A stretch of 64,000 nucleotides of DNA from Oscillospiraceae bacterium (GTDB lineage: Bacteria > Bacillota > Clostridia > Oscillospirales > Oscillospiraceae), in contig JAFTXW010000019.1 in the NCBI GenBank assembly GCA_017461445.1, positions 42,145 through 106,144 on the forward strand, written 5' to 3'. Both the position numbers and the translations under genes were made by a program. Below, one piece after another: positions 1,465 to 50,978 of this stretch; positions within the stretch are counted from its first letter, which is position 1, and the number at the start of each line of letters is the position of its first letter. Under the pieces are notes generated by a model. It had not been told where the DNA came from. It searched no databases and saw nothing but the letters and a program-made list of their open reading frames with translations.

Positions 1465-2310
1465 TCATTTTGTATAATAGCTTCGGGTGATGCCGGCGTT
1501 AGCGAAGCCTGTTTTTTCGTAATAGTGCTGGGCGGCGGTATTGGACAGGGCGGTGTCTGTGTCGAAGCGTCGGATGCCCAGTTGGTACAGTTCCGCAAAA
1601 AGCTGGCGCATAATGGCAGTGCCAAGGCCCTGGTGCTGCCGTTTTTCATCCACATAGATCCAGCGAAGATAGGCGATATCCCCTTGCGGAAGAAAATGCA
1701 CCTGGCCCCAGCCCACTTCCACACCTTCTGTCAGGGCGGCGAATTCCCGGCATCCGCCGGGGGACAGGTCGCTCCAGCGCAGGGAGATGGTATCGTCCGC
1801 CGTGTCCTTCGGGCTGAGGATTCTGGCGTAATAGATATTTTCGTGCTCCACGGTGAAGCCGTTGTTCAGAAGAAGGGCTTCCACATGGGGGCTGCTTTCG
1901 TGAAGCTTGCCGTGACGGGCGCAGGCAGTCATACCGAAGTAATGGAAGAACGCATAAATCCGCTGCTCCGTACCAAAATGGTCAAGGGCGGCGTGCAGCA
2001 GTTGCTCCCCAACCTCCGGTTTGTCCCTGTCAAAGCAGAGGATACGGATAACGTTATGGTGTACATCGCTGGAGATTTCACCGGACGTATCAAAGCCGAA
2101 GGCGGTTTCTCCGTATTCGATCAGGCCTGTGAATTCTCCGTCCTTTTGGCAGGTGGTTCGGGAGCATTTTACAATTAAAGTGGAAAAGAGCGGATGACCA
2201 TCACCATCTACATCCTCATACATGGACTGATACCATTGATCCCCGGTCATGGGGAAATGATAGGGCGCGGTGCATTGACTGCGCCAATAATCAAACAGTG
2301 TCTTTCCCAT
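1465..2310 (-). CDS. GNAT-family N-acetyltransferase, last gene of the aro operon
   Basis: 281 residues. The C-terminal half is a recognisable GNAT fold: the acetyl-CoA loop RQHQGLGTAIM follows a beta-strand (AYLRWIYVDEK), and the closing NTAAQHYYEKTGFANAG is the usual beta-6/alpha-4 ending. The N-terminal half (about 140 residues) looks like a second, degenerate GNAT-like domain without a clear acetyl-CoA loop. The ATG lies inside the 3' end of aroQ (20-base overlap) and is preceded by AAGGAAC, so translation is probably coupled. The substrate is unknown. Its place at the end of an aromatic biosynthesis operon may be chance, since GNAT genes are common hitchhikers. Confidence 0.8.
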   Translation of the reverse strand: MGKTLFDYWRSQCTAPYHFPMTGDQWYQSMYEDVDGDGHPLFSTLIVKCSRTTCQKDGEFTGLIEYGETAFGFDTSGEISSDVHHNVIRILCFDRDKPEVGEQLLHAALDHFGTEQRIYAFFHYFGMTACARHGKLHESSPHVEALLLNNGFTVEHENIYYARILSPKDTADDTISLRWSDLSPGGCREFAALTEGVEVGWGQVHFLPQGDIAYLRWIYVDEKRQHQGLGTAIMRQLFAELYQLGIRRFDTDTALSNTAAQHYYEKTGFANAGITRSYYTK

Positions 2311-2734
2311 AATGTTCCTTCAAATAAAGGATCGCCTGCCGGTACCCGTCCAGTCCCTGACCCTTGATGGTCTTGACACAGGCCATACCGGCGTAGGAAA
2401 TCTGGCGGAAGGGCTCCCGGCTGTCCACATCGGAGATGTGAACCTCCACAGCGGGGATGGAGACCGCCTTCAGAGCGTCAAGAATGGCGACGGAGGTGTG
2501 GGTATAGGCGGCGGGGTTTATGACAATGCCGTCCACTTTGCCGTAGGCCCACTGAATTTTGTCAACCAAATCGCCCTCGTGGTTGGACTGGTACTGTTCC
2601 ACTTCCAACCCTTCTGCCAGGGCAGTTTCTTCCAGCAGACGCAGCAGGTCGGCAAAGGTGTTCTTTCCATAAATGCCCGGCTCCCGGATGCCCAGCATGT
2701 TCAGGTTGGGGCCATTGATGACGAGAATTTTCAT
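2291..2734 (-). CDS. aroQ: 3-Dehydroquinate dehydratase, type II
   Basis: 147 residues, the usual length of the small dodecameric type II enzyme that converts 3-dehydroquinate to 3-dehydroshikimate. The N-terminus MKILVINGPNLNMLG, the flexible loop with the catalytic Tyr (REPGIYG), the NPAAYTHTSVAI segment with the catalytic His, and VHISDVDSREPFR are all family signatures. The start overlaps the stop of aroE-aroK as ATGA, which indicates translational coupling. It carries out the third shikimate step, and the other steps lie in the same transcript. Confidence 0.97.
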   Translation of the reverse strand: MKILVINGPNLNMLGIREPGIYGKNTFADLLRLLEETALAEGLEVEQYQSNHEGDLVDKIQWAYGKVDGIVINPAAYTHTSVAILDALKAVSIPAVEVHISDVDSREPFRQISYAGMACVKTIKGQGLDGYRQAILYLKEHYGKDTV

Positions 2735-3957
2735 GGTGTTTCCTCCAATTTTTCAAGAATCCGGGCAACGGTTTCCTCTGCCGCGCCGTTGTTGTCGATG
2801 GCGTGGTCGGTAAAGGCTTCATACATGGGCTTCCGTATGGCGTACATATCCGTCAGCTTATTGGCCTGGGACAGGGGGCGGCCATCGGTGGGAAGCACGT
2901 CCAGGGCACGTTTTAGCCAGAAGATGGTTCCATTCTGATGGAGCAGGGGATAGTTCCGTTCCTTTGTTACACAGCCGCCGCCGGTGGCGATGATAAGGGC
3001 CGACTGCTTGCCCAGCTCCGAAAGGGCTTTTGTTTCCCACTCCCGGAATACCTCCTCGCCGTCCTCAGCAAAAATCTCAGGAATGGATTTTCCCGCAAGA
3101 CGGACAATTTCTGCATCCGCGTCCACAAATTTCCGTCCCAGCTTTTCCGCCAGCATTCCGCCGATGGTGCTCTTTCCGCAGCCGGGCATGCCCACAAGGA
3201 CGATATTTTGCATCTGCACAGATAACTTCCGGTGGATATCTCCAATCCGGGAATCGTCAATGGGCTTTCCGGTGAAATACTCCGCAGCCTCCTTTGCTTG
3301 GGCCACCAGCATCCACAGTCCGTTTTCTGTGGAAAGCCCCAGCTTTTCCGCGTCCAGCAGCAGCTGGGTCCGGGCGGGGTTGTAGACCACATCCAGCACA
3401 CCCTCCAGCCTTGGGAACCGGGACAAATCTACAGGGTTGACACCCACGTTGGGATACATGCCCACCGGGGTGGTGTTCACGATCACAGCTGCGTCGGCGT
3501 GAAGGTGGAGGTTATCATAATTGTTTTCCCCGGAGCGAGAAATGACAATGACCCTGGCACCCAGCTCCCGCAGCACGGCCACCGCCGTATTGGAAGCACC
3601 GCCGCTGCCCAGCACCAGTGCCTTTTTGCCGGAAACCGCCAGACCGCTCCGCTTTACCATGGAGGCAAAGCCGAAATAGTCTGTATTGTGTCCGAAAAAG
3701 GTGCCGTCCGCTCTGCGGACGATGGTATTCACCGCACCAATCTTCCGGGCAGTGGGGGACAGTTCATCAAGAAAAGGAATGACCTCTTTTTTGTAGGGAA
3801 CCGTTACATTGATGCCGGTAAAATCTCCGTTTTTCAGGAAAACCTCGATTTCCTCCGGCTCCTTTTCAAAGAGCACATAGGAGTAATCTCCCAGATAACC
3901 GTGAATCTGCGGGGAATAGCTGTGCCCCAGCTTCCGGCCCAATAATCCGCACCTCAT
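2731..3957 (-). CDS. Shikimate dehydrogenase - shikimate kinase fusion
   Basis: 408 residues holding two enzymes. Residues 1-246 are AroE: the shikimate-binding SYSP (13-16), the catalytic Lys in NVTVPYKKE (about 56), the Asp in GHNTDYFGF (about 93), and the NADP Rossmann loop VLGSGGASNT. Residues 249-408 are AroK: Walker A GMPGCGKST (257-265), the DADAEI shikimate-binding Asp, and the GGGCV loop. I chose the ATG at 3957 because it overlaps the pheA stop (ATGA) and has GAGGTGG upstream; the frame stays open 21 codons further, but that stretch lies inside pheA. One polypeptide would reduce dehydroshikimate and phosphorylate the product. Met249 could give a separate kinase by internal initiation. 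Confidence 0.95.
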   Translation of the reverse strand: MRCGLLGRKLGHSYSPQIHGYLGDYSYVLFEKEPEEIEVFLKNGDFTGINVTVPYKKEVIPFLDELSPTARKIGAVNTIVRRADGTFFGHNTDYFGFASMVKRSGLAVSGKKALVLGSGGASNTAVAVLRELGARVIVISRSGENNYDNLHLHADAAVIVNTTPVGMYPNVGVNPVDLSRFPRLEGVLDVVYNPARTQLLLDAEKLGLSTENGLWMLVAQAKEAAEYFTGKPIDDSRIGDIHRKLSVQMQNIVLVGMPGCGKSTIGGMLAEKLGRKFVDADAEIVRLAGKSIPEIFAEDGEEVFREWETKALSELGKQSALIIATGGGCVTKERNYPLLHQNGTIFWLKRALDVLPTDGRPLSQANKLTDMYAIRKPMYEAFTDHAIDNNGAAEETVARILEKLEETP

Positions 3958-5099
3958 CAAACCACCTCGGTATAGCTGCCCAGATACTTGAATTCCTCGC
4001 ACAGCTCGTCCAGCTCGCACATCAGCTGTACGAATTCTTCGGAGTAAATGGAGGTCTCCAGATCGAAATAGAACATGAACTCAAACTCCCGGTCGGGGAG
4101 GGGACGGGATTCCAGCTTGGTCACATTGATGCCCAGGGTGTAAAGCCGTGCCAGGACTTTGTACAGCGCGCCGGGCTTATGGTTCAGGATCATCATGATG
4201 CTGGTCTTGTCGGAACCGGGGTAAATTTCCAGATTTTTGCTGATGCAGATGAACCGGGTGTGGTTGTTGCCCTTGTCCTGAACGGAGTGAGCGATGCAGT
4301 CCAAGCCGTACAGCTCGGCGCAGCTGCGGCTGGAAAGGGCGGCAACATCATTTCTGCCGGATTTTGCCACCATTTCGGCGGCGACGGCGGTGTTGCTGAC
4401 GGGAATCACATTAACGCCCGGCAGGCTGTGGAGGAAGTCGCCGCACTGGTTGATGGCCTGTTCGTGGGAGTAGACGGTTTTGATATCACTGAGCTTGGTG
4501 CCCTTGTTTACCAGTACATTGTGGTCTACTTTTAAGCGGAAGGTGCGGACAATGGAGAAATTGTGACGGATCATCAGGTCGTAGACCTTGTTGACGGAGC
4601 CAGCGGTGGAGTTTTCAATGGGCAGAATGCCGTAGGGGCACAGACCCTGCTCGATGGCGTTGAATACACCCTCGAAGTTCTTGAAATACATGATAAAGGG
4701 GCTTTTGAATATCTTTTCGCAGGCGATTTGGGAATAGGCACCCTCCACGCCCTGGCAGGCCACCATGGGAGCCTGGGGAAACAGCTTGGGGGTATTTTCG
4801 ATGGCTTGGGTGATTTGCCCGAACAGGGGGCTGACCTCGCCGTTTCGCTTGCTCTGGTAGCTGCGGCTCAGCTCGAAAAGCATGGAGTACAGCACCCGGG
4901 CATAGTTTGCCATCTCGGGGCCTGCCTTTTCGGCAACGCTCTGCAAAATGGCCCGCTCCCGGGCGGGAACCAGAATGGGCATATTGTTTGCCTTTTTATA
5001 GTCAGCCACCTTGGCAGACAGATTCATGCGTTGGCAAAACAGCTGCACCAATTGGTCGTCGATTTTATCAATATCCTTGCGGATCTCGGTTAAGTCCAC
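3957..5099 (-). CDS. pheA: Bifunctional chorismate mutase / prephenate dehydratase (P-protein)
   Basis: 380 residues. Residues 1-90 are an AroQ-type chorismate mutase (MDLTEIRKDIDKIDDQLVQLF, with ERAILQSV at its end). Residues 110-290 are prephenate dehydratase (VACQGVEGAYSQIA near the start, NHTRFICI containing the conserved TRF). Residues 300-380 are an ACT domain with the Phe-binding ESRP motif (LESRPLPDREFEFMFYFD), so the enzyme is probably feedback-inhibited by phenylalanine. The start is GTG with AGGAGG eight bases upstream. It commits chorismate to phenylalanine, while tyrA in the same operon takes prephenate to tyrosine. Confidence 0.97.
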   Translation of the reverse strand: MDLTEIRKDIDKIDDQLVQLFCQRMNLSAKVADYKKANNMPILVPARERAILQSVAEKAGPEMANYARVLYSMLFELSRSYQSKRNGEVSPLFGQITQAIENTPKLFPQAPMVACQGVEGAYSQIACEKIFKSPFIMYFKNFEGVFNAIEQGLCPYGILPIENSTAGSVNKVYDLMIRHNFSIVRTFRLKVDHNVLVNKGTKLSDIKTVYSHEQAINQCGDFLHSLPGVNVIPVSNTAVAAEMVAKSGRNDVAALSSRSCAELYGLDCIAHSVQDKGNNHTRFICISKNLEIYPGSDKTSIMMILNHKPGALYKVLARLYTLGINVTKLESRPLPDREFEFMFYFDLETSIYSEEFVQLMCELDELCEEFKYLGSYTEVV

Positions 5100-5101
5100 G
5101 G

Positions 5102-6190
5102 TTACTTCCTCCTGTTTGTTTGGGTGTTGCCCAGGATCAGATCATAGATGGCAATGGCTGCCGCCGCCTCCACAACGGGAACGGCCCGGGGGACGATGCA
5201 GGGGTCGTGACGGCCCTTGACAGTAAGCTCCTGCACTTCCATCCGGCTAAGGGAAACGCTCTGCTGGGGTTTCGAGATGGAGGGGGTGGGCTTGATGGCT
5301 ACATCGAAGATGATGGGCATACCGTTGGTGATGCCGCCAAGGATGCCGCCACAGCCATTGGATTCAGCGGTGATTTTTCCGTTAGCAATCGTGTAGCTGT
5401 CATTATTCTCGCTTCCGCGCAAATGGGCGGCGGTGAAGCCCAAACCAAATTCTACACCCTTGACTGCCGGGATACCGTAGACGATTTGCGCGATGCGGCT
5501 CTCTACGCCGCCGAACATAGGCTCACCAATTCCGGCGGGGAGCCCAGTAACGGCGCATTCGATGATACCGCCAACGCTGTCTCCCTTGTAGCGTGCATGG
5601 GCGATTTCAGACATCATGGCTTCGGCACTGTCCTGGTGGAGGACTGGAAAATGGGGGAGGATGGCATTGATGTCCGGTTCCAGAGGATCGAAGGTATCAT
5701 CTACCGCCTGACCGATGCAGGTAATGTGGGCTGTGATTCGAATCCCCATCTCCTCCAGCCACTGCTTGCACAGGCCGCCTGCGATGCACAGGGGAGCCGT
5801 CAGCCGCCCGGAGAAGTGGCCGCCGCCTGCGGCATCCTGGAAACCGCCGTACTTAACTTGGGCGGTGTAGTCCGCGTGACCGGGTCGGGGGCAGTCCTTC
5901 AGGTTAGCGTAATCCCCGGAGCGGGTGTTTTTGTTGTAGATCACGGCGGCGATGGGTGCGCCGCAGGTGCAGCCGTCCAGAATGCCGCCCAGGAATTCGG
6001 GACGGTCCTCCTCCCGGCGGGGGGTGGACCAGTCATTCTGACCCGGTGCACGGCGGTTCAGGAATTCCTGTAGTTTATCCAAATCCACCGGAAGCCCCGC
6101 AGGGATGCCGTCCAGGGTCATACCGATGGCGGGGCCGTGGGATTGGCCGAAAATGGATAATTTTAGATTTTCACCGTAGGTACTGCTCAT
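5102..6190 (-). CDS. aroC: Chorismate synthase
   Basis: 362 residues, the normal length for the FMN-dependent enzyme that makes chorismate from EPSP. Signatures seen: GQSHGPAIGMTLDGIPAG near the start, the basic RRAPGQNDWSTPRREEDRPEFLGG segment, GRLTAPLCIAG, and the C-terminal KGRHDPCIVPRAVPVVEA. The ATG has GGAGGC upstream and overlaps the end of aroA by 20 bases; the stop is two bases before the pheA GTG. No oddities. Confidence 0.97.
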   Translation of the reverse strand: MSSTYGENLKLSIFGQSHGPAIGMTLDGIPAGLPVDLDKLQEFLNRRAPGQNDWSTPRREEDRPEFLGGILDGCTCGAPIAAVIYNKNTRSGDYANLKDCPRPGHADYTAQVKYGGFQDAAGGGHFSGRLTAPLCIAGGLCKQWLEEMGIRITAHITCIGQAVDDTFDPLEPDINAILPHFPVLHQDSAEAMMSEIAHARYKGDSVGGIIECAVTGLPAGIGEPMFGGVESRIAQIVYGIPAVKGVEFGLGFTAAHLRGSENNDSYTIANGKITAESNGCGGILGGITNGMPIIFDVAIKPTPSISKPQQSVSLSRMEVQELTVKGRHDPCIVPRAVPVVEAAAAIAIYDLILGNTQTNRRK

Positions 6191-7367
6191 ATTTGCCTCC
6201 TAACCGGGCGTATTCGGCCCAGAAATGGGGATAGGATTTCTTGACGCATTCCGCGCCAAGGATGGTGACGTGTTCCTTGCAGACTGTTGCCGCGATGGCG
6301 GCGGACATGGCGATGCGGTGGTCGTTGACGCTGTCCACGGTACCGCCGGTCAGGCCCGTGCCGTAAACAGTTAGGGTATCTTCGGTGGCTTCAGCCCTGC
6401 CGCCAAGGTTTTCCAGCATGGCAACGACGGAGGCCACCCGGTCGGATTCCTTTAACCGAAGCCGCCGGATGTCCGTAAAGACCGCACCTTGTTTGCAGGC
6501 TGCAACCACCGATAGGATGGGAACCAGGTCGGGGATATCCGCTGCGGAAATGGTGATATTTTCGTCCAGTGCGGGGAGAAGTTCTGCTGCCGCCCGGTCG
6601 CCCTGGGGAGAATCCGGGGAGAGGTTATGGGTGGTAACCTCATTTCCCAGGGACTGTGCCGCTAAGAAGAAGGCACCGTTGCTCCAATCGCCCTCTACAG
6701 TTACGGTGCCGGGGGAATGAAAGGGCTTTCCACCCTGAACGGAAAACGCTTCCGTATCCATTCCGAAAACTGCCATGGCCCGCTGGGTCATGGTGATATA
6801 GGGCCGGGATTCCACTTTGCCGACCAACCGGATGTGGCTCTCGCCGGGGATCAGGGCCGTTGCCAGCAGCAAACCCGTAATGAATTGGCTGGATACGCTG
6901 CCGTCAATGACGTATTCGCCCGCTTTCAGCTTTCCCTGGCAGCGGATGGTTTCAGAGGTGGGGCGGGTCAGGGTGCAGCCCATCCGTTCCATTTCCTCCC
7001 ATAGGGGGGACAGGGGACGCTGGGGCAGCCGCCCGGCCATCAGGAAAGTGGCATCCACGCCCAATGCGCCTGCCACAGGCAGCAGAAAGCGCAGGGTGGA
7101 GCCGCTTTCGCAGCAGTTGAGCAGGGCTTTTTCGGGAAGGGCTTGAACCGGTGTGACGGAATAGCCCCAGTCTGTCCGGGTGATCTTTGCACCCAGCGCG
7201 TTCAGACAATCCGCCGTGGCTTCAATGTCCCGGTTGGTGTCCGGGCAAAGAAGGGTGGTGGGCCTGTCTGCAAAGGCGGCGCAGATCAGAAGCCTGTGGG
7301 CCTGGGATTTGGAGGGGATGGCGGTAACGGAGCCGCTCAGTTTTTGGGGGGTAATGGTTATATCCAT
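6171..7367 (-). CDS. aroA: 5-Enolpyruvylshikimate-3-phosphate synthase
   Basis: 398 residues. It joins shikimate-3-phosphate and PEP. Visible motifs: the N-terminal SKSQAHRLLICAAF (the conserved Lys-Ser of the S3P/PEP site), SGSTLRFLLPVAGALG, and LRLKESDRVASV. The ATG at 7367 lies two bases after the aroB stop, with the ribosome site (GAGGCAGG) inside the last aroB codons. An upstream TTG at 7385 would extend it by six residues but lies inside aroB and has no better ribosome site. The active-site loop reads AGALG rather than GNAGTA, which places it near the class II (glyphosate-insensitive type) enzymes; that class assignment is inference. Confidence 0.96.
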   Translation of the reverse strand: MDITITPQKLSGSVTAIPSKSQAHRLLICAAFADRPTTLLCPDTNRDIEATADCLNALGAKITRTDWGYSVTPVQALPEKALLNCCESGSTLRFLLPVAGALGVDATFLMAGRLPQRPLSPLWEEMERMGCTLTRPTSETIRCQGKLKAGEYVIDGSVSSQFITGLLLATALIPGESHIRLVGKVESRPYITMTQRAMAVFGMDTEAFSVQGGKPFHSPGTVTVEGDWSNGAFFLAAQSLGNEVTTHNLSPDSPQGDRAAAELLPALDENITISAADIPDLVPILSVVAACKQGAVFTDIRRLRLKESDRVASVVAMLENLGGRAEATEDTLTVYGTGLTGGTVDSVNDHRIAMSAAIAATVCKEHVTILGAECVKKSYPHFWAEYARLGGKYEQYLR

Positions 7368-7368
7368 A

Positions 7369-8403
7369 TCAAAGACCTGCCTCAATGAAGGATCTCAGGT
7401 TTTCTACGGGGGTGGGTACGATTTCGCAGTGGCCGATGGCTTTGGGTATGATAAGATTCACCGTGCCGCCGCTGCGCTTTTTGTCGGAAAGGGTGTAGCT
7501 ATAGAGATCATCAGCGGAATATTCCGTATTGGTGGGCAGACCGAATTTTTCAAGGATACCGATGATTTTTCCGGTATCCCCGCAGCCGGAGGCCCGGCTG
7601 ACGATGGCCATGCCGATGGCGACGGCTTTGCCGTGGGAGATGCCGAAGTGGCTTTTGGCCTCCACGCCGTGGCCGATGGTGTGGCCCAGATTCAGCTTCA
7701 TCCGGGCACCAGTGTCAAATTCATCCTCCATCACCACATCCCGCTTTAATTCCACACAGCGGGTGATGACGGCTTCCCGGTCAAAGTTCAGGCCCTTTTC
7801 TTCCAGATGGGCAAAGAGGGCAGGATCGTACAGTGTGCCGTACTTGATGACCTCGGCGCAGCCGTCCCGGAAGATATCCTCGGAGAGGGAGTTCAGGGTG
7901 TCGGTATCGCAGAGAACCAGACTGGGCTGGCAAAAGGCTCCTGCCAGATTTTTGCCTGCGGGCAGATCGATGGCGGTTTTGCCGCCCACGGAGGAATCCA
8001 CAGCTGCCAGCAGGGTAGTGGGTACCTGAATGAAGCGGATACCACGCAGGTAAGACGCGGCGGCGAAGCCCGCCAGATCGCCTACAACGCCGCCTCCCAG
8101 AGCCACGAGCATATCGGAGCGGGTCAGCTTGTTTTCTGCCAGGAAATTCAAAAGGGAAAGGAAGGTATTGCCGTTTTTGCTTTCCTCTCCGGCGGGAAAA
8201 ACGTAGGAAATGACGTCAAAACCGGCAGTTTTCAGGCTTTCCGCGGCAACATTACCGTAAAGGGGAAATACGGTGCTTTCGCTGACAATGCAGACCTTCT
8301 GGGCTTTGCCCAGCTTTTTGGCTTCTGCGCCAAGGGTGGAAAGCAGGCCGCTTCCAATCAAAATATCGTATTTTTTTGAGGCGTTGACTGTGACGGTGTT
8401 CAT
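7369..8403 (-). CDS. aroB: 3-Dehydroquinate synthase
   Basis: 344 residues, normal for this NAD- and metal-dependent enzyme converting DAHP to 3-dehydroquinate. Motifs: GGGVVGDLAGFAAASYLRGI (nucleotide loop), PTTLLAAVDSSVGGKTAID, and the metal-binding LNLGHTIGHGVEA. The start overlaps the tyrA stop as ATGA, continuing the operon's coupled arrangement. Confidence 0.97.
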   Translation of the reverse strand: MNTVTVNASKKYDILIGSGLLSTLGAEAKKLGKAQKVCIVSESTVFPLYGNVAAESLKTAGFDVISYVFPAGEESKNGNTFLSLLNFLAENKLTRSDMLVALGGGVVGDLAGFAAASYLRGIRFIQVPTTLLAAVDSSVGGKTAIDLPAGKNLAGAFCQPSLVLCDTDTLNSLSEDIFRDGCAEVIKYGTLYDPALFAHLEEKGLNFDREAVITRCVELKRDVVMEDEFDTGARMKLNLGHTIGHGVEAKSHFGISHGKAVAIGMAIVSRASGCGDTGKIIGILEKFGLPTNTEYSADDLYSYTLSDKKRSGGTVNLIIPKAIGHCEIVPTPVENLRSFIEAGL

Positions 8404-9230
8404 CCGTCCACCTCCTCTTTTCGTTTCTTGCCTTCGTCCAGCAGGGACACCAGGCGGTCCATATTGTTGTCGGAAATGGCATCCCGGTATTCTTTCAAAC
8501 TATTGATATAGTAATCCAGCTCAAAGAGCACGTTTTCTTTGTTTTCCATAAACAGCTCTGCCCACATCTGCGCATTCAGCCAGGCAACACGGGTCAGATC
8601 CTTGTAGCTGCCCGCGGAGAAGCCCTTGTGGTTCAGGGCGGTGGGGGATTTGATAAAGGCGTTGCTTAAAATGTGGGGCATCTGAGAGGTGAAAGCGATC
8701 ATCTTGTCATGCTCCTCTGCCGTTGTTACGGAGAAGAAGCCAAAATTGCAGGGCTTCAATGCCTTCTTCACCCGGTCCAACAGCTGGATATCATCAAAGA
8801 CCGGGGGAACCAGCACCATGGGCGCACCCTCAAAAAGGTTGGCCCGGCTGTACTTGAAGCCGGAAAACTGAGAGCCAGCCATGGGATGTCCGCCTACAAA
8901 GGTAAAACCGTATTTTTCTGCCAGAGGGAAGCACCGTTCACAAATCTCACGCTTAATGCCGCAGCAGTCGATGACCAGAGCGGACCTGGACACCAGAGGG
9001 GCGTTCTTTTCCAGCCAAGAGGCACTGCCATCAGGGTAAATGGCAAGCAGGATCAGGTCGCATTCGGGAATGGTGGTCTCATCCAGCTTTCCATGGACGG
9101 CACCGGCCAGCATGGCAAAGGAGAGCATACTTTCGTTTCGCTGAATGGCGTAAACGGTGTGGCCCTCCAGGGCGTAGGCTCTTGCAAGAGAACCGCCGAT
9201 CAGGCCGAGACCTAAAATACCGACTTTCAT
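8400..9230 (-). CDS. tyrA: Prephenate dehydrogenase
   Basis: 276 residues. An N-terminal Rossmann domain starts with VGILGLGLIGGSLARAYA. The central catalytic part has the conserved GGHPMAGSQFSGF (His of the prephenate site) and the C-terminal half is the all-helical dimerisation domain. There is no ACT domain, so any tyrosine control would act on the protein by other means or on transcription (see the leader region at 10.3 kb). ATGA overlaps occur at both ends (with the DAHP synthase gene and aroB). The product is 4-hydroxyphenylpyruvate for tyrosine. Confidence 0.95.
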   Translation of the reverse strand: MKVGILGLGLIGGSLARAYALEGHTVYAIQRNESMLSFAMLAGAVHGKLDETTIPECDLILLAIYPDGSASWLEKNAPLVSRSALVIDCCGIKREICERCFPLAEKYGFTFVGGHPMAGSQFSGFKYSRANLFEGAPMVLVPPVFDDIQLLDRVKKALKPCNFGFFSVTTAEEHDKMIAFTSQMPHILSNAFIKSPTALNHKGFSAGSYKDLTRVAWLNAQMWAELFMENKENVLFELDYYINSLKEYRDAISDNNMDRLVSLLDEGKKRKEEVDG

Positions 9231-10228
9231 GCAATGACCTCCCGGATCTGCTGTACTTTCCGGTTCAGCTCCTCAAACTGGGGCGGCGTCAGAGACTGGG
9301 CACCGTCGCACAGGGCGCAGGCGGGATTGTTGTGGACCTCCACCATAATGCCGTCCGCTCCGGCGGCGGTGGCCGCAAAGGCCATGGGAGCCACCAGATC
9401 GGCCTTGCCTGTAGCATGGCTGGGATCGATTACTACAGGCAGGTGGGTCAGGTTGTGCAGCACAGGAACGGCGGAAAGATCCAGGGTGTTCCGGGTGTAG
9501 GTTTCAAAGGTGCGGATGCCCCGCTCGCAGAGGATAACGTTTTCGTTGCCCTCGCTCATGATATATTCCGCGCTCATCAGCAGCTCCTGCAATGTGTTGG
9601 CAAGGCCGCGCTTCAAAAGAACGGGTTTCTTGGTCTTGCCCAATTCCTTCAGCAGGTCAAAATTCTGCATATTCCGTGCGCCAACCTGGATAATATCCAC
9701 ATCGGCAAACAGGTCGAGGGTGGAGATATTCATAATTTCGGTAACGATGGGCAGTCCGGTGGCTTCCTTGGCCTTTAGAAGAAGCTGAATACCCTCGTTC
9801 TTCATGCCCTGGAAGGCGTAGGGGGAGGTGCGGGGCTTAAAGGCACCGCCCCGGAGAATATCCGCGCCTGCTTCCTTCACGGCCTGAGCCACTTCGATGA
9901 TCTGCTCCTCGGATTCGACACTGCAGGGGCCTGCAATCATGGCGAAATAGCCGCCGCCGATCCGGGCGTGGCCAACCTCCACGATGGTGTCCTTGGGATG
10001 GAACTTCCGGTTTGCCTGCTTGAAGGGCTCGGAAACACGCTTGACGGTCTCCACCATTTCTAGGCTTTTCAGCAGTTCCATATCCACCCGGCTGGTGTCG
10101 CCGATAAGGCCCAGAACGGTGACCTCGGCACCTTCCGAAATGTGGACGTCCAGATTCATATTCTTCAGCCAGTTCACCAGATGCTGGGTCTGCTGGGGGG
10201 TGGTTCCCTGTTTTAAAATGGCGATCAT
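9227..10228 (-). CDS. aroF: DAHP synthase, type I-beta with N-terminal regulatory domain
   Basis: 333 residues. It makes 3-deoxy-7-phosphoheptulonate from PEP and erythrose-4-phosphate, the entry step of the pathway. Residues 1-70 (MIAILKQGTTPQQTQHLVNW...) form the ferredoxin-like regulatory domain known from the Thermotoga enzyme, where it mediates Tyr/Phe inhibition. The catalytic barrel follows: AGPCSVESEEQ, RGGAFKPRTSPYAFQG, LKRGLANTLQELL, CERGIRTFE, and VIDPSHATGK. I chose the ATG at 10228 with AGGAG seven bases upstream, not the upstream in-frame TTG. It is the first structural gene after the attenuator. Confidence 0.95.
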   Translation of the reverse strand: MIAILKQGTTPQQTQHLVNWLKNMNLDVHISEGAEVTVLGLIGDTSRVDMELLKSLEMVETVKRVSEPFKQANRKFHPKDTIVEVGHARIGGGYFAMIAGPCSVESEEQIIEVAQAVKEAGADILRGGAFKPRTSPYAFQGMKNEGIQLLLKAKEATGLPIVTEIMNISTLDLFADVDIIQVGARNMQNFDLLKELGKTKKPVLLKRGLANTLQELLMSAEYIMSEGNENVILCERGIRTFETYTRNTLDLSAVPVLHNLTHLPVVIDPSHATGKADLVAPMAFAATAAGADGIMVEVHNNPACALCDGAQSLTPPQFEELNRKVQQIREVIA

Positions 10229-10242
10229 AGTAACATCTCCTG

Positions 10243-10278
10243 ACAAAAATAACGCCGCACGGGCAATTCGTGCGGCGT
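10243..10278 (-). terminator. Attenuator terminator of the aro operon leader
   Basis: Read on the minus strand, ACGCCGCACG and CGTGCGGCGT form a perfect 10-bp GC-rich stem around AATTGCC, followed by TATTTTTGT. It lies between the leader peptide and the first structural gene, only about 15 bases before that gene's start, so it must be conditionally bypassed. Confidence 0.9.
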
Positions 10279-10414
10279 CTTAAAATACCTTTTAAGCTCC
10301 TGAAAATCTCTGCAGCACAAATCGCTATTACTTTTCCTCGGTAAAAAAGTAATAGTAGCTAAAGTAAAACAGTGCAGCAGCGTTGACCATGGGTAGTCTC
10401 CTTGTACAGTAGCT
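10267..10414 (-). promoter_or_regulatory. Phe/Tyr ribosome-dependent attenuator leader RNA
   Basis: Three alternating helices can be drawn by eye on the minus-strand RNA. Segment 1 (10372-10381, GCUGCUGCAC, inside leader codons 4-7) can pair with segment 2 (10310-10321) in 8 of 9 positions. Segment 2 (UUUGUGCUGC, 10312-10321) can pair with segment 3 (GCCGCACGAA, 10267-10276), the 5' arm of the terminator, in 9 of 10 positions including one wobble. Segment 3 with segment 4 makes the terminator. A ribosome stalled on the aromatic codons would cover segment 1 and let 2:3 form (readthrough). A ribosome reaching the stop codon would cover segment 2 and let the terminator form. The geometry matches the trp/phe attenuators of enterobacteria. 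Confidence 0.85.
10328..10390 (-). CDS. Phe/Tyr-rich leader peptide of the aro operon
   Basis: A 20-residue peptide starting ATG with AAGGAG seven bases upstream and ending TAA. Codons 8-16 read F-Y-F-S-Y-Y-Y-F-F, i.e. eight aromatic codons out of nine (four Phe, four Tyr). It starts about 24 bases after the predicted transcription start and is followed by the competing helices and terminator described for this leader. Its job is to report charged tRNA-Phe and tRNA-Tyr through translation speed, not to make a functional product. No other peptide of this composition was noticed in the window. Confidence 0.92.
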   Translation of the reverse strand: MVNAAALFYFSYYYFFTEEK

Positions 10415-10420
10415 GCGGAC

Positions 10421-10449
10421 ATTATACCACGGGTGGTGGAATATTGCAA
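10421..10449 (-). promoter_or_regulatory. Sigma-A promoter of the aro operon
   Basis: Minus strand: -35 TTGCAA (10444-10449), 17-base spacer, -10 TATAAT (10421-10426). It is ideally placed to start transcription about 24 bases before the leader peptide ATG. Confidence 0.88.
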
Positions 10450-10466
10450 GAGGGGAAATACGGAAA

Positions 10467-11240
10467 TCAGACAATTTTTGCAAGAGCGGTAAGAATGCTA
10501 TTCAGGTCATCCGAAACGTTTTCAGGCTCTGTAAACATATGGGAAAACAAAGCATGGACATTTTCTTCAAAGTTTTCCGGAAGAATGGGGCAATTTTCCC
10601 GGCACAGCTGCAAAAGCCGCTTTTCACCGGGGTGGGTTTGCTCATTCAGGGCAAACAGGAGGTCAAAATAGGATTCCATAAAGGCCGAGACCCGGTGGTT
10701 GATGCTGACAAGGTCACCCCGCTTTACCGCTTTGTTGATCTGCAGCTCATAAGCAGGCATTGCGGCCCGGAGAAGCTTCCAGTTTCGGCTTATAATATCC
10801 TCCCGCAGCTTTGCGGGATAGGGGACATCGAAGCGGTGCTTGGTATCCGCGAGACGGCCGTTTTCATCGTAAACGATCTTGCAGGTACGCAGGTTATGCC
10901 ACATGCAGGTTGTGTAACCATTGCGGCCATGGCAGCTTTCCACCACGTCGGCCACATCTGCGGTAAAGTCATCCAGATTCCGGTAGAGAATGTCAATATC
11001 AATGCCGTTTTTGAGGGTGCAGTTGTCTTCATATTCCCAGAAATGATTGCCGATCTCCATGTAGGAGCAGTATTTGCGCAGAATTTCCCGGCGGATTTCG
11101 GCATCAATCGGGCCGGTGCAGTACAGGTAGACATCGTAATCCGATTTTTCATCATAGTGGGTGCCGGCCCGGGAGCCGCCCAGGGCAATGGCCTCAATTT
11201 CAGGAAGGGCTGCCAGTTCGGAAAACAGTTGGTTGACCAT
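10467..11240 (-). CDS. Nucleotidyltransferase-fold protein (DUF4037-like)
   Basis: 257 residues. The N-terminus has the DNA polymerase beta-type nucleotidyltransferase signature GGSRAGTHYDEKSDYDVYLY (GS motif plus the DxD metal ligands), with a further Asp at GIDIDIL as third acidic ligand. The rest is helical and resembles the substrate-binding half of DUF4037/aminoglycoside adenylyltransferase-like proteins. It could adenylylate a small molecule or a tRNA-like substrate; nothing here identifies which. It is a separate unit just upstream of the aro promoter, on the same strand. A resistance role is possible but unsupported. Confidence 0.75.
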   Translation of the reverse strand: MVNQLFSELAALPEIEAIALGGSRAGTHYDEKSDYDVYLYCTGPIDAEIRREILRKYCSYMEIGNHFWEYEDNCTLKNGIDIDILYRNLDDFTADVADVVESCHGRNGYTTCMWHNLRTCKIVYDENGRLADTKHRFDVPYPAKLREDIISRNWKLLRAAMPAYELQINKAVKRGDLVSINHRVSAFMESYFDLLFALNEQTHPGEKRLLQLCRENCPILPENFEENVHALFSHMFTEPENVSDDLNSILTALAKIV

Positions 11241-30245: not shown

Positions 30246-32633
30246 TTACCGGAGAACGGCGTCCAGCTTTTCTTTCAGGGCAGCCAGGACCTTGGTCATA
30301 ACAGCCTCGGAATCGGTATCGGTGAGGGTGCGGTCATCGGCCCGCAGCTCCAGGGAGAAGGCCATGCTCTTCTTGCCCTCGGGTACGCCCACGCCACGGT
30401 AAATGTCGAACAGCTTCACGCCCCGCAGCAGCTTGCCTGCAGCGGCGGTGATGACACTCTCCACATCCGCAACGGTGATTTCCTCACCGCAGACCAGAGA
30501 CAGGTCACGGGTAACGGTGGGATACTTGGGCAGGGGGGTGTAGGTGGCATCGGGCAGCTGCAGTGCCATCAGCTTGGTGAAGCTGATCTCTGCACAGTAG
30601 ACCTCCACATCGATGCCGTAGTTCTTGGCGACAGAGGGGTGGACCTGGCCCATAACACCCACTTCTACACCGCCCACGGATACGCTGGCGCAGCGGCCGG
30701 GGTGGTAGCTGGGATTGTTCTTCACAGCGGCGTAAGAAGCCTTCTGCAGCCGCAGACCAGCGAAGATGGCTTCCAGCTCGCCCTTCAGGGTAAAGAAGGT
30801 TTCGTTGGCACCGTAGGTACCCAGAACCAGCATCTTGGGCTCCTTGGGCAGCTTCTGGCCCTCAACAGGCAGGTAAATCTTTGCCAGCTCATAGAGCTTT
30901 ACGGATTTGTTCTGGTAAGCGTTGTTCCGGGAGAGAATTTCCAGCATGGAGGGAAGGGCGATGGTACGCATGATGGAGGTATCCTCGCCCAAGGGGTTCT
31001 GGATGCGCAGAGCGTTTCGCAGAGTGCTGTCAGCGGGGATGCGGATCTGGTCGAACACAGTGGGGGAGACAAAGGAATAGGTGATGATCTCGCTGTAGCC
31101 CAAACCACGGCACAGCTGGCCTGCCTTGGCTTCCAGCTTCATCTCGGGGGAGTAGCCGCCCTGGGTGGAGGTCTTGAAGGCAGTGGTGGGGATCTCGTTA
31201 TAGCCGTAGGAGCGGCCCACTTCCTCAGCGATATCCGCCATCAGGTTCAGGTCGGGGCGGAAGGAGGGAACCAGAATGGTGTCGCCCTCTACAGGGATTT
31301 CCAGCAGGTTCAGATACTTGACCATATCCTCCTTGGAAATAGCGGTGCCCAGCAGCTTGTTGATCTTATCGCATTCCAGAGGCAGGGTCTTTTCCTCAGG
31401 AACGTAGTTGATGATGTCGATGGTGCCGTTCAGCACGTCGCCGCATTCCAGCAGCTCCACCAGCTCGCAGGCCCGCTGGACGGCGGGAATGGTCATTATG
31501 GGATCCAGGTTCTTCTCGAACTTTCCGGAAGCCTCGGTACGCATACCCAGAGCCAGGGCGGTCTGGCGGATGGAGGTGCCGTTGAAGTTGGCGGACTCGA
31601 AGACCACCATGGTGGTGTCGTCCATGATCTCGGAGTTTTCGCCGCCCATGATGCCTGCCAGGCCGATGGGCTTGGTGTCATCGGCAATGACCAGCATACC
31701 GGCCTTCAGATTCCGGACGGTGCCGTCCAGAGTGGTCAGAGTCTCGCCCTCTTCAGCTTCCCGAACCACGATCTTGCCGGAAGCAACATAGCGGTAGTCA
31801 AAGGCGTGCATGGGCTGGCCGTACTCCAGCATGACGTAGTTGGTGATATCCACGATGTTGTTGATGGGACGGACACCGTTGGCGCGCAGCCGCTGGCGCA
31901 GCCACTTGGGGGAGGGACCGATCTTGACGTTGGCAACCATCCGGGAGGAGTAGCGGTTGCACAGCTCAGTAGCAGGTACTTCCACATCCAGATAATCGTA
32001 AATATCACCGGCATCGGAGCCATTGACTACAGGCTCGTGGTGCTTCATCTGCATGCCGAAGGCGGCAGCGGATTCCCGGGCCAGACCGATGATGGAATAG
32101 CAGTCGGGACGGTTGTTGGTGATCTCGAAGTCGACGATGGTATCGTCGTTGCCGATGACCAGGTTGATGTCGTCGCCGGGCTTGCAGTCCTCATCGTTCA
32201 GAATCCAGATACCGTCGGCGTAAGCACCGGGCAGATCGTTCTGGGTCAGGCCCAGCTCAGCGAAGGAGCAGAGCATACCGTTGGACTTTTCACCCCGCAG
32301 CTTGCCCTTGGTGATGTGCACACCGCCGGGCAGCCAGGAATTGTGCAGGGCAGCGGGCACCAGGTCGCCCTCGTGGACGTTCTGGGCACCGGTGACGATC
32401 TGGACAGGCTCCTCCTGACCAACATCCACCTGGCAGACCCACATATGGTCGGAATTGGTATGGCGCACAATGGAGACCACCTTGCCAACTACGACGTTCT
32501 TGATTTCAGCGTCCATACGCTCATAGGTTTCTACCTTCTGACCGAAAACGGTCAGGGTCTCTACATATTCTTTATCGGAAACGTGGCTCAGGTCCACGAA
32601 TTCCTCATTCAGCCATTTTCTGTTCAGCTTCAT
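30246..32633 (-). CDS. pheT: Phenylalanyl-tRNA synthetase beta subunit
   Basis: 795 residues, full length. In order: an N-terminal tRNA-binding EMAP-like domain (about 40-150), the B3/B4 editing domain (about 200-390, MLEYGQPMHAFDYRYVA), the B5 DNA-binding-like domain (about 400-470), the catalytic-like core, and a C-terminal FDX-ACB domain (about 700-795, PKYPTVTRDLSLV...). With PheS it forms the alpha2-beta2 enzyme charging tRNA-Phe and clears mischarged Tyr-tRNA-Phe. It starts 13 bases after pheS in the T-box-controlled operon. Confidence 0.97.
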   Translation of the reverse strand: MKLNRKWLNEEFVDLSHVSDKEYVETLTVFGQKVETYERMDAEIKNVVVGKVVSIVRHTNSDHMWVCQVDVGQEEPVQIVTGAQNVHEGDLVPAALHNSWLPGGVHITKGKLRGEKSNGMLCSFAELGLTQNDLPGAYADGIWILNDEDCKPGDDINLVIGNDDTIVDFEITNNRPDCYSIIGLARESAAAFGMQMKHHEPVVNGSDAGDIYDYLDVEVPATELCNRYSSRMVANVKIGPSPKWLRQRLRANGVRPINNIVDITNYVMLEYGQPMHAFDYRYVASGKIVVREAEEGETLTTLDGTVRNLKAGMLVIADDTKPIGLAGIMGGENSEIMDDTTMVVFESANFNGTSIRQTALALGMRTEASGKFEKNLDPIMTIPAVQRACELVELLECGDVLNGTIDIINYVPEEKTLPLECDKINKLLGTAISKEDMVKYLNLLEIPVEGDTILVPSFRPDLNLMADIAEEVGRSYGYNEIPTTAFKTSTQGGYSPEMKLEAKAGQLCRGLGYSEIITYSFVSPTVFDQIRIPADSTLRNALRIQNPLGEDTSIMRTIALPSMLEILSRNNAYQNKSVKLYELAKIYLPVEGQKLPKEPKMLVLGTYGANETFFTLKGELEAIFAGLRLQKASYAAVKNNPSYHPGRCASVSVGGVEVGVMGQVHPSVAKNYGIDVEVYCAEISFTKLMALQLPDATYTPLPKYPTVTRDLSLVCGEEITVADVESVITAAAGKLLRGVKLFDIYRGVGVPEGKKSMAFSLELRADDRTLTDTDSEAVMTKVLAALKEKLDAVLR

Positions 32634-32646
32634 TCTCTTGTCCTCC

Positions 32647-33690
32647 TTAGAACTGGTTCAGGAACCGGACGTCGTTGTCGAAGATCAGGCGCAGGTCGTT
32701 GATCTTCATGCGGCCCATGGCGGTACGCTCCAGGCCGATGCCGAAGGCGAAGCCGGAATACTTGTCGGGGTCAATACCGCAGTTGCGCAGAACCTCGGGG
32801 TGCACCATACCGGCACCCAGCAGCTCGATCCAGCCCTCGCCGTGGCAGGTGGAGCAGACGTTGCCGTCGATCTCACCGGTGCCGTGGCACTTGTGGCACT
32901 GCATATCCATCTCACAGCTGGGCTCGGTGAAGGGGAAGTGGTGGGGACGGAAGCGAACCTGGGCATCGTGGCCATAGATCTTATTCATAATGTTGATCAG
33001 CGCGCCCTTCAGGTCGCCCATGGTGATGTTCTCGGCAACTACCAGGCCCTCGATCTGATGGAACATGGGGGAGTGGGTAGCATCGGCCTCGTCCTTACGG
33101 AACACACGGCCGGGAGCCAGCATGCACAGGGGAGGGGTATGGGTCTCCATGAAGCGGATCTGCATGGAGCTGGTCTGGGTGCGCAGCAGCACTTCGTCAT
33201 TGTCGTCGAAGTAGAAGGTGTCGGAACGGTCGCGGGAGGGGTGGCCTTCCTCGATGTTCAGGCGGGTGAAGTTGTAGCTGGCGAACTCTACCTCGGGGCC
33301 GTCCACAACGGTGTAGCCCATGCCTACGAAGATGTCCTTGATCTCCTGCAGCACCTGATTCATGGGGTGCTGATGGCCCACGGCCACGGTCTCGCCCGGA
33401 ATAGTCACGTCGATGGCTTCGGCAGCCAGCTTGGCTTCCAGCACAGCGGCGTGAATAGCGGCCTTACGCTCCTCCAGCTTGGCTTCGATATCAGCCCGGA
33501 CAGCGTTGGCCATCTGGCCCATGATGGGTCGCTCCTCGGGGGACAGCTTGCCCATCTGCTTCAGGACGGCGGTCAGCTCGCCCTTTTTGCCAAGCAGCTT
33601 GACCCGGAGCTCTTCCAGGCTGGCAGGGGTTGCGGCAGCATCCAGTGCTGCCAGAGCATTCAGTTTGATCTGCTCCAATTGTTCTTTCAT
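32647..33690 (-). CDS. pheS: Phenylalanyl-tRNA synthetase alpha subunit
   Basis: 347 residues. An N-terminal coiled-coil arm (about 1-90) is followed by the class II catalytic domain. Motif 2 lies around APGRVFRKDEADATHSPMFHQIEGL and motif 3 is GFAFGIGLERTAMGR. Residues about 262-285 hold two CxxCxGxG units (CHKCHGTG, CSTCHGEG), a zinc-knuckle insertion just before the conserved WIELLGAGMVHP; Gram-positive PheS proteins often have Cys pairs here. The gene is the first of pheST behind a T-box with a UUC specifier. Confidence 0.97.
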   Translation of the reverse strand: MKEQLEQIKLNALAALDAAATPASLEELRVKLLGKKGELTAVLKQMGKLSPEERPIMGQMANAVRADIEAKLEERKAAIHAAVLEAKLAAEAIDVTIPGETVAVGHQHPMNQVLQEIKDIFVGMGYTVVDGPEVEFASYNFTRLNIEEGHPSRDRSDTFYFDDNDEVLLRTQTSSMQIRFMETHTPPLCMLAPGRVFRKDEADATHSPMFHQIEGLVVAENITMGDLKGALINIMNKIYGHDAQVRFRPHHFPFTEPSCEMDMQCHKCHGTGEIDGNVCSTCHGEGWIELLGAGMVHPEVLRNCGIDPDKYSGFAFGIGLERTAMGRMKINDLRLIFDNDVRFLNQF

Positions 33691-33724: not shown

Positions 33725-33818
33725 GGAGTTGAAAGTTGATAGTTGAAAGTTGAAAGTTAAGGTATTGCATTCAACAATGATTTCCATAATTTCCAATTTT
33801 CAATTTTCAATTTTCAAC
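33725..33818. repeat. AT-rich inverted repeat between the T-box and pheS
   Basis: Tandem GTTGAAA units on one side (33727-33757) face tandem CAATTTT / TTTTCAA units on the other (33790-33818), so the stretch can fold into a long A/U hairpin with a loop of about 30 bases. It lies after the T-box terminator and before the pheS ribosome site, so it is in the 5' UTR of the read-through transcript. Similar AGTTGAAAATTGAAAATTG arrays look like insertion debris in other Clostridia (from memory, not checked). Confidence 0.7.
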
Positions 33819-33820
33819 TA

Positions 33821-34080
33821 AAAAAATACGCCTCTCATCCCATCATTCGGGACGAAAGGCATTCCTTCCGCGGTACCACCCGCAATTCACCGCTTTCACG
33901 GTGCGCTTTTTCGGTGCTGACACACCATAGACCCTTAACGGAGTCACCCGTCCGTCCCTACTTTCCTTTCAGGCGGCAGCTCCTGGGAGAAAGCCCGGTA
34001 TCGTACCCAAGCGGCTCACACCATCCCGCTCTCGCTGTATGTGGTAAACCCAATACAAGGCAGCCCAATCATTGCTTTTG
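33821..34080 (-). promoter_or_regulatory. T-box leader of pheST (tRNA-Phe sensing)
   Basis: On the minus strand the order of elements is classical. Stem I has the distal GAGAGCGGGATGGTGTGAGC, and its specifier loop contains UUC (33989-33991), the Phe codon. A central region follows, then the T-box core GGTGGTACCGCG (33870-33881) that pairs with the uncharged tRNA acceptor end, and a terminator, GCCTTTCGTCCC / GGGATGAGAGGC, followed by GTATTTTTTT (33821-33860). Uncharged tRNA-Phe should favour the antiterminator and expression of pheS and pheT. The whole 510-base gap between pheS and the peptidase gene consists of this leader, the AT-rich repeat and promoters. Confidence 0.95.
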
Positions 34081-34140
34081 CAAATATCCCCGTTATAGTA
34101 ACATATTCATTTTCATTATGCAAGCACAAAATTCTTATTC

Positions 34141-50355: not shown

Positions 50356-50978
50356 ATGTTGCGCTGCCAAAGGGCCGTTTGGGTGAAAAGGTCTATGCCA
50401 TGTTCGAGAAAGCAGGCTTTGAGTGCCCTTCCATCCGGGAAAATAACCGGAAGCTGATCTTTGAGAATCCCGAAAAGCAGGTGCGCTATTTCTGGGTAAA
50501 GCCCTCAGATGTGGCGATCTATGTGGAACGGGGTGCTGCGGATATCGGAATTGCCGGAAAGGATATTCTTCTGGAATACCAGCCGGAGGTCTATGAGCTG
50601 CTGGACTTGGGGCTGGGCAAATGCCGCATGGCAGTGGCCGCACCTGTTGGATTTTACGACGATGGGGAGCGTACCCTGCGGGTCGCTACCAAATTCCCTC
50701 ATATTGCCGCCAACCATTACGCCCGCATCGGCCGGGAGATCGATATTATCAAGCTGAACGGTTCCATTGAGCTGGCACCCATTTTGGGCCTAAGCAATGT
50801 GATTGTGGATATCGTGGAAACGGGAACGACCCTGCAGGAAAATAACCTGGCAGTGGTGGAAAATATCGTTCCCATCAGCGCACGGCTCATTGCCAACAAG
50901 GCTGCCTTCCATTTTAACCATATTCAAATTGAGGAAATTTTAGATGCGCTAAAGAAACAGGTGGATAGCAATGATTAA
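50349..50978 (+). CDS. hisG: ATP phosphoribosyltransferase, short form
   Basis: 209 residues, lacking the C-terminal regulatory domain of long HisG, which explains the adjacent hisZ. Motifs: MLNVALPKGRLGEKV, KPSDVAIYVERGAADIGIAGKD, and the PRPP loop DIVETGTTLQEN. It makes phosphoribosyl-ATP, the first step of histidine synthesis. Overlaps: ATG within the end of hisZ, and its end overlaps hisD by eight bases. Confidence 0.97.
   Translation: MLNVALPKGRLGEKVYAMFEKAGFECPSIRENNRKLIFENPEKQVRYFWVKPSDVAIYVERGAADIGIAGKDILLEYQPEVYELLDLGLGKCRMAVAAPVGFYDDGERTLRVATKFPHIAANHYARIGREIDIIKLNGSIELAPILGLSNVIVDIVETGTTLQENNLAVVENIVPISARLIANKAAFHFNHIQIEEILDALKKQVDSND

Follow-up and report, generated by a model that had tools for sequence, protein, structure and literature searches.

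The window analysed here is a 64 kb stretch of DNA (64,000 nucleotides) from a gut bacterium of the class Clostridia, in which a short open reading frame (ORF) rich in Phe and Tyr codons (F/Y) lies before a set of shikimate genes, and the question is how the synthesis of aromatic amino acids is controlled at this locus. An earlier note on this DNA had claimed attenuation by a leader peptide that governs the whole shikimate operon. This claim was well supported by comparison, namely by conservation in the genus, covariation, spacing and a set of diverse leaders.

Parts of the leader and genes of the operon

The promoter, the ribosome site and the 20-codon peptide described in the earlier note were all found where it had put them on the minus strand (Table 1), and codons 8-16 of MVNAAALFYFSYYYFFTEEK comprise four Phe and four Tyr. 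Its pair counts were likewise confirmed on the letters. Segments 1 and 2 can pair at 8 of 9 positions (CTGCTGCAC/GTGCTGCAG, 1:2) and segments 2 and 3 at 9 of 10 with one wobble (TTTGTGCTGC/GCCGCACGAA, 2:3), and the 3:4 stem has 10 perfect pairs (11 when a G-T is counted). A further hairpin, which we call H1 and which the earlier note had not listed, joins the Tyr/Phe codons to the region of the stop codon.

Table 1 Features of the leader, of the operon downstream and of the pheS-pheT genes in the window
Feature	Position	Strand	Basis or remark
Promoter, sigma-A type, TTGCAA-17-TATAAT, TG before -10 (extended)	10421..10449	-	10/12 matches
Shine-Dalgarno AAGGAG of leader ORF	10398..10403	-	letters at site
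Leader peptide ORF MVNAAALFYFSYYYFFTEEK*, 20 codons, ATG 10390 to TAA 10328	10328..10390	-	translation
Segment 1 (CTGCTGCAC), able to pair with segment 2	10372..10380	-	weakest element
H1 5' arm (CTATTACTTTT), within Tyr/Phe codons	10345..10355	-	paired in genus and diverse leaders
H1 3' arm (AAAAGTAATAG), contains stop codon	10325..10335	-	paired in genus and diverse leaders
Segment 2 (TTTGTGCTGC), antiterminator 5' strand, starts 6 nt past stop codon	10312..10321	-	
Segment 3 as antiterminator 3' strand (GCCGCACGAA)	10267..10276	-	2:3 pairing
Intrinsic terminator 3:4 (ACGCCGCACG-AATTGCC-CGTGCGGCGT)	10252..10278	-	fold and comparison
Terminator T-rich tail ATTTTTG	10244..10250	-	letters at site
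aroF, DAHP synthase with ferredoxin-like domain, first operon gene	9227..10228	-	Pfam, NCBIfam
tyrA, prephenate dehydrogenase	8400..9230	-	Pfam, NCBIfam
aroB, 3-dehydroquinate synthase	7369..8403	-	Pfam
aroA, EPSP synthase	6171..7385	-	Pfam
aroC, chorismate synthase	5102..6190	-	Pfam
pheA, chorismate mutase-prephenate dehydratase	3957..5099	-	Pfam, NCBIfam
aroE-aroK fusion, shikimate dehydrogenase and kinase	2731..4020	-	Pfam
aroQ, type II dehydroquinase	2291..2734	-	Pfam
pheS	32647..33690	-	downstream of T-box
pheT	30246..32633	-	downstream of T-box

Chance is no explanation for the leader ORF. When the 300 bases upstream of aroF were shuffled with dinucleotides kept, a mini-ORF with Shine-Dalgarno sequence, ATG and at least five F/Y in nine codons arose in 0 of 1,000 shuffles (largest count, 4), and within the window the leader ORF is the sole such mini-ORF above three. 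Furthermore, the 178-nt leader folded better than 199 of 200 shuffles (z -3.2). No family of Rfam 15 reached its gathering score at the leader, the best being RUF4 with 19.7 bits against a gathering score of 55, and other Rfam elements were accordingly rejected there. A T-box (RF00230) was also rejected, with no covariance-model match at 10200-10500.

The domain PF04715 (anthranilate synthase component I, N-terminal domain), used to look for trpE, was detected in 0 of 19 genus genomes, several of which are incomplete, and in 14 of 14 control genomes. A sensor of Phe and Tyr only fits this result; should the Trp branch be missing, Phe and Tyr would be the main products served by the shikimate operon, and a Phe/Tyr leader could therefore govern all of it. 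A second DAHP synthase-family gene was observed in the genome of the window (L002, contig C55), outside the operon.

Conservation, folding and covariation

The genus set comprised 37 genomes including the own one, 34 of them with a DAHP synthase match. A leader of 18-22 codons, starting with ATG and holding 7-9 F/Y in nine codons, was observed before aroF in 31 of the 34, and all 31 had a Shine-Dalgarno match of at least 4 bases before the ATG. Promoter-like letters also precede most of the printed genus leaders, as judged by eye. In L034, L035 and L036, no leader was found in the region before the DAHP synthase gene, whose start was not found in L036. The aroF of L034 and L035 is divergent, and a terminator-like hairpin was seen by eye to be kept before the gene, with no F/Y leader.

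Pairing was examined in an alignment (A2) of 28 of the 31 leaders, from which L027, L031 and L033 (a near-duplicate and two poorly aligned leaders) were excluded. H1 is the best-kept structure of the leader, being paired in 99.7% of the cells with a two-sided change at 1 of 11 pairs; in L032, where a Tyr codon is replaced by Ser, the opposite arm of H1 is altered with it. The terminator stem 3:4 was paired in 94.6% of the cells, and 7 of its 10 pairs showed two-sided changes. For 2:3 the value was 96.4%, against 22.6-69.8% in slid versions, and two-sided changes were observed at 3 of 9 pairs. This stem is largely invariant: with the 3' letters shuffled, 95.6% of the cells were still paired, and 11 of 500 shuffles reached 96.4%. 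The six-pair core of 1:2 was paired in 78.4%, with a two-sided change at 1 of 6, and segment 1 with its 1:2 stem is the least-kept part of the anatomy. Of the four-segment switch put forward in the earlier note, the leader codons, 2:3 and 3:4 were thus kept in relatives, with some two-sided changes in both stems, whereas 1:2 was the weakest.

Segment 2, which had been said to begin about six bases past the stop codon, begins exactly 6 nt past it in 30 of the 31 genus loci and 10 nt past it in L032, and the distance from the last aromatic codon to segment 2 is 21-27 nt in all 31 (F/Y among the last three residues excluded). Folding with and without a ribosome mask had been named as a check in the earlier note. 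In our mask model, the ribosome edge was assumed to lie 13 nt beyond the A-site. When the ribosome was placed at the stop codon, the terminator folded in 29 of the 31 loci, failing in L032 and being partial in L033, and the antiterminator was weaker in every one (medians, -11.6 and -7.0 kcal/mol). The unmasked RNA also folded the terminator in 28 (not in L024, L032 and L033). When the mask was moved back to the last aromatic codon, 2:3 was formed in 24; this part of the check failed in seven (L020, L023, L024, L027, L031, L032 and L033), which were judged by the automatic test alone, segment 3 having been placed by a simple pattern that probably misplaced it in L032.

A wider alignment (A4) contained 62 diverse leaders, hand-chosen from leader-bearing matches with some omitted, and was fitted to the model and hence biased to it. 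Here 3:4 was paired in 95.2% of the cells with two-sided changes at all 10 pairs, and H1 in 97.6% with two-sided changes at 9 of 11. One pair of H1 was A-U in 24 leaders, U-A in 24 and U-G in 9, which corresponds to a swap between Tyr TAT and Phe TTT matched on the other arm. Among 60 non-genus leaders, in which some likeness is built in because they were found with a covariance model of the genus (R1, see below), a model-free search gave a stem adjoining segment 2 that outscored all 50 letter shuffles in 43 leaders but not in the other 17. The best match to TTGTGCTGC had at most two mismatches in 53 of the same 60, and was placed in frame 2 in 23, in frame 0 in 8, in frame 1 in 1 and past the stop codon in 21. 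Since these letters stand in differing frames or after the stop codon, they are kept as RNA and not as peptide.

Proposed mechanism, alternatives and known systems

From the parts, conservation, covariation and spacing observed, we consider that the leader is very probably a ribosome-mediated transcription attenuator, with charged tRNA-Phe and tRNA-Tyr as its signals. That the ribosome stalls, where its edges lie, that readthrough changes and that the eight genes form a single transcript are inferred from these observations. When both charged tRNAs are plentiful, the first ribosome would translate all eight aromatic codons and, on reaching the stop codon, mask the beginning of segment 2 with its leading edge. 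Segment 3 would then be left to pair with segment 4, and transcription would halt before aroF. When Phe or Tyr is short, the ribosome would stall at codons 8-16, with H1 melted and segment 2 free to pair with segment 3 before segment 4 is made. The terminator would thereby be blocked and the operon transcribed, from DAHP synthase through the Phe and Tyr branches. With no translation, H1 and 1:2 could form and the terminator would be the default.

The peptide itself might be what matters. As an arrest peptide resembling TnaC, the nascent F/Y chain could make the ribosome sense free Phe or Tyr, not charged tRNA, and stall. The C-terminal ...YYFFxxKK is indeed well conserved within the genus; outside it, however, mainly the F/Y richness is kept, and length, order and C-terminal residues vary widely, which makes an arrest peptide extremely unlikely. 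If the ORF instead encoded a functional small hydrophobic protein that merely lies before the operon, the hairpins would be incidental. Such a protein would account for the Shine-Dalgarno sequence and coding frame shared by all 31 leader-bearing loci of the genus, but not for the two-sided changes in H1 and 3:4, the segment 2 letters kept across three reading frames or past the stop codon, or the Tyr TAT to Phe TTT swap mirrored in the 3' arm of H1, and its probability appears next to negligible.

The opposite emphasis, in which the ORF is secondary and the RNA is bound by a ligand or a protein (a riboswitch or a TRAP-like element), would agree with H1 and the letters around segment 2 being kept past the paired core. 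We regard it as very unlikely, because the leader reaches the gathering score of no Rfam family, its codons match the pathway and the remainder is a plain terminator/antiterminator switch.

Within the attenuator proposed here, the place of H1 is of interest. A U/G step lies 11 nt beyond its 3' end, and position -10 is a G in 27 of the 31 loci of the genus and in 39 of 58 diverse leaders, an arrangement that resembles the elemental pause consensus. These letters suggest that H1 may be an RNA polymerase pause hairpin; other constraints could yield the same letters. A broader proposal, which we offer tentatively and with more doubt than belief, is an RNA family of Clostridia in which the control codons lie in a covarying hairpin of their own; H1 would not rival the antiterminator but act as a polymerase pause hairpin, synchronising ribosome and polymerase and coordinating aromatic biosynthesis, uptake and related genes. 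If the pause reading is true, close timing of ribosome and polymerase operates in Gram-positive bacteria. To our knowledge, transcription-translation coupling is doubted in these bacteria, and Bacillus subtilis is reported to be without tight coupling. Since attenuation by a stalled ribosome needs translation close behind the polymerase, the family would be a natural test of coupling in Gram-positive bacteria; it would also provide annotation handles for a transporter family and many uncultured gut bacteria.

The trpL and pheL attenuators of Gammaproteobacteria consist of a short ORF with end-product codons, alternative stems and an intrinsic terminator, with an amino acid operon downstream, and the leader here shares all of these. 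It differs from them in having codons of two amino acids, the whole shikimate pathway downstream and a host in the class Clostridia, and in that its control-codon hairpin H1 shares no strand with the antiterminator. The T-box (RF00230) also senses tRNA charging, but binds the tRNA directly and has no leader ORF.

The claim that such a leader was not described for this group proved too strong. In a five-genome survey that includes Clostridium novyi, Stav et al. (2019; PMC6429828) reported a pair of candidate uORFs that contain F and Y and are associated with shikimate genes, the passages on them leaving the carrier genome unstated. By this text description, the two resemble the leader here in their F and Y codons and shikimate genes; unlike the present case, those passages give no mechanism, distribution or organism for them. 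Similarly, uORFC-13-1 of PMC8632094, with at least one Phe codon, lies before aroF with an apparent terminator and is a candidate attenuator according to the text description; it differs in being reported there only in Acholeplasma and environmental sequences, with Tyr codons unmentioned in that description. A His leader peptide before two hisS paralogues (hisS* and hisZ) in bacilli, as outlined in PMC2965389, is likewise a Firmicutes leader-peptide attenuator where related genes have a T-box, and differs in concerning histidine and synthetase paralogues. Leader peptides at branched-chain operons of Staphylococcus aureus and Listeria (judging by the titles of PMC5794164 and PMC5864092), control of Tyr biosynthesis by T-boxes in the B. 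cereus group (PMC2494555, in the part concerned) and putative attenuators at tyrA operons, Bacillus species included (PMC1173090, likewise), have also been described. The main text of PMC11109978, in the sections available, does not mention aroF, and no paper was found in the open-licence literature on leader peptide and Oscillospiraceae. As far as these sources go, the mechanism and candidate F/Y uORFs at shikimate genes are already known, and the leader here is an unusually widespread member of that kind; in the available portions of the open-licence literature found, neither its breadth nor the H1 hairpin nor the wider set of genes was described.

Distribution in Clostridia and neighbouring controls

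In a first set of relatives, scored more loosely, 16 aroF loci came from the remaining families of the order, and 10 of them had at least five F/Y in nine codons. R1, the covariance model built from the genus, was used with stricter filters, so that its counts are low estimates. In the order, 51 of 394 genomes were matched, own included, and 50 of 56 matches were inspected, six weak ones being left out. Thirty-nine of these 50 lie before aroF with an F/Y leader, one before a TrpX-like ABC transporter, three before TrpB-like genes, their leaders containing Trp as well, and one before a W/Y synthetase gene; six had neither. In the class, 24 of 391 genomes were matched, own included, and the 24 matches besides the own comprised 20 before aroF with an F/Y leader, one before pheA, one before an AMP-binding gene and two without a leader. 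The three matched among 348 genomes of the phylum were the own and two others, both before aroF-tyrA. The leaderless matches with no aromatic gene (6 of 50 in the order, 2 of 24 in the class) led nowhere.

A pattern of 16 fixed bases was found at no fewer than 116 loci in named genome contigs. Among the 116 listed, 45 lie before aroF, 11 before a transporter and one before tyrA, and all 57 have at least five F/Y in nine codons. The other 59 had no sought gene next and look like chance, with four of them still reaching at least five F/Y. Named carriers include Candidatus Faecousia species, in three records of which aroF is 81-89% identical, and [Clostridium] viride DSM 6836, whose leader stands at L119. 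The gene order aroF-tyrA-aroB-aroA-aroC-pheA-aroEK-aroQ was unbroken in the 32 checked of the 45 aroF-bearing pattern loci listed, as far as the available stretches reach, which end at differing genes and in two cases extend little past aroF. In this check, L123 showed aroF alone and L190 showed no pheA.

Furthermore, a sample not selected for leaders was drawn from 291 class genomes searched at the protein level, with matches in 217. One aroF per family was taken from the listed matches, so that weaker aroF homologues are under-represented, and 39 of the 40 regions were usable (L324, too short, was dropped). When ATG, a Shine-Dalgarno match of at least 4 bases, a stop codon 60-215 nt upstream of the gene and at least five F/Y in nine codons were required, a leader was found in 16 of the 39 families and in 23 none was found; the count was 19 at four F/Y or more and 13 at six or more. 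The controls gave 0 of 39 reverse complements and 4 of 3,900 shuffles, and such a leader was found in 0 of 39 regions preceding PF04392 or HisG genes, which were taken from the genus and order and not the whole class. A terminator-like stem lay between the leader stop and aroF in 15 of the 16 families, a count with no background control. The search of relatives' aro loci for F/Y peptides with a terminator, also named in the earlier note, was thus fruitful in class families as well as in the genus. The segment 2 letters TGTGCTGC, one mismatch allowed, were near the stop codon in 3 of the 16, so that this motif is not universal. These results indicate that Clostridia commonly rely on leader-peptide attenuation to control aromatic amino acids, in genomes that also contain T-boxes. 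The leader is accordingly not the unusual case that it had been taken for; an F/Y leader switch is widespread in a class where another kind of RNA switch is usually expected.

Related leaders were observed before other genes. Those of the TrpB-like genes L214, L216 and L218 (assigned by NCBIfam for L214 and L218 and from the gene start only for L216) have Trp, Tyr and Phe codons with an R1 match, and by their codons they are a putative Trp-including relative of the attenuator. A similar attenuator lies before TrpX-like ABC transporters at L106, L113, L114, L133, L134, L135, L149, L171, L172, L189, L193 and L087, which suggests that these transporters carry Phe or Tyr rather than Trp. An F/Y leader as a general control of PF04392 transporters was rejected, since 0 of 26 upstream regions from the genus and order had ATG, a Shine-Dalgarno match of at least 4 and five aromatics in nine. 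The best of them, L237 and L250, had five in nine with Shine-Dalgarno matches of 3 and 0, and T-box-like GGTGGnACCGC was present in 8 of the 26; the leader at TrpX-like transporters was found only outside those regions, at L087 and the 11 pattern loci listed. L219, with a class I W/Y tRNA synthetase gene next, was discarded because it had no good leader. At L299, an F/Y leader with an R1 match lies before an AMP-binding gene, which we take to be phenylacetate-CoA ligase-like.

At HisG (about 50499-50954 of the window, plus strand), a simple scan gave no convincing His-rich leader or T-box-like letters, there or in 16 related loci. A T-box was found before aroF in G038 (C65:54303-54567) and T-box-like letters before aroF in L051 and L337; judged from these letters, the sensor appears to have been switched at the same gene, the T-box or T-box-like letters replacing the F/Y leader. 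In the window, a T-box precedes pheS-pheT (33845-34081, minus strand), with 84.7 bits against an Rfam gathering score of 93 and a specifier read as UUC (Phe) from the alignment. With this T-box at PheRS and the F/Y leader at aroF, one genome seems to use both kinds of tRNA-charging sensor for the same amino acid. Two short arrays of 7-base repeats (AGTTGAA and AATTTTC), which may form a long hairpin, were also noted at 33727-33817, between this T-box and pheS.
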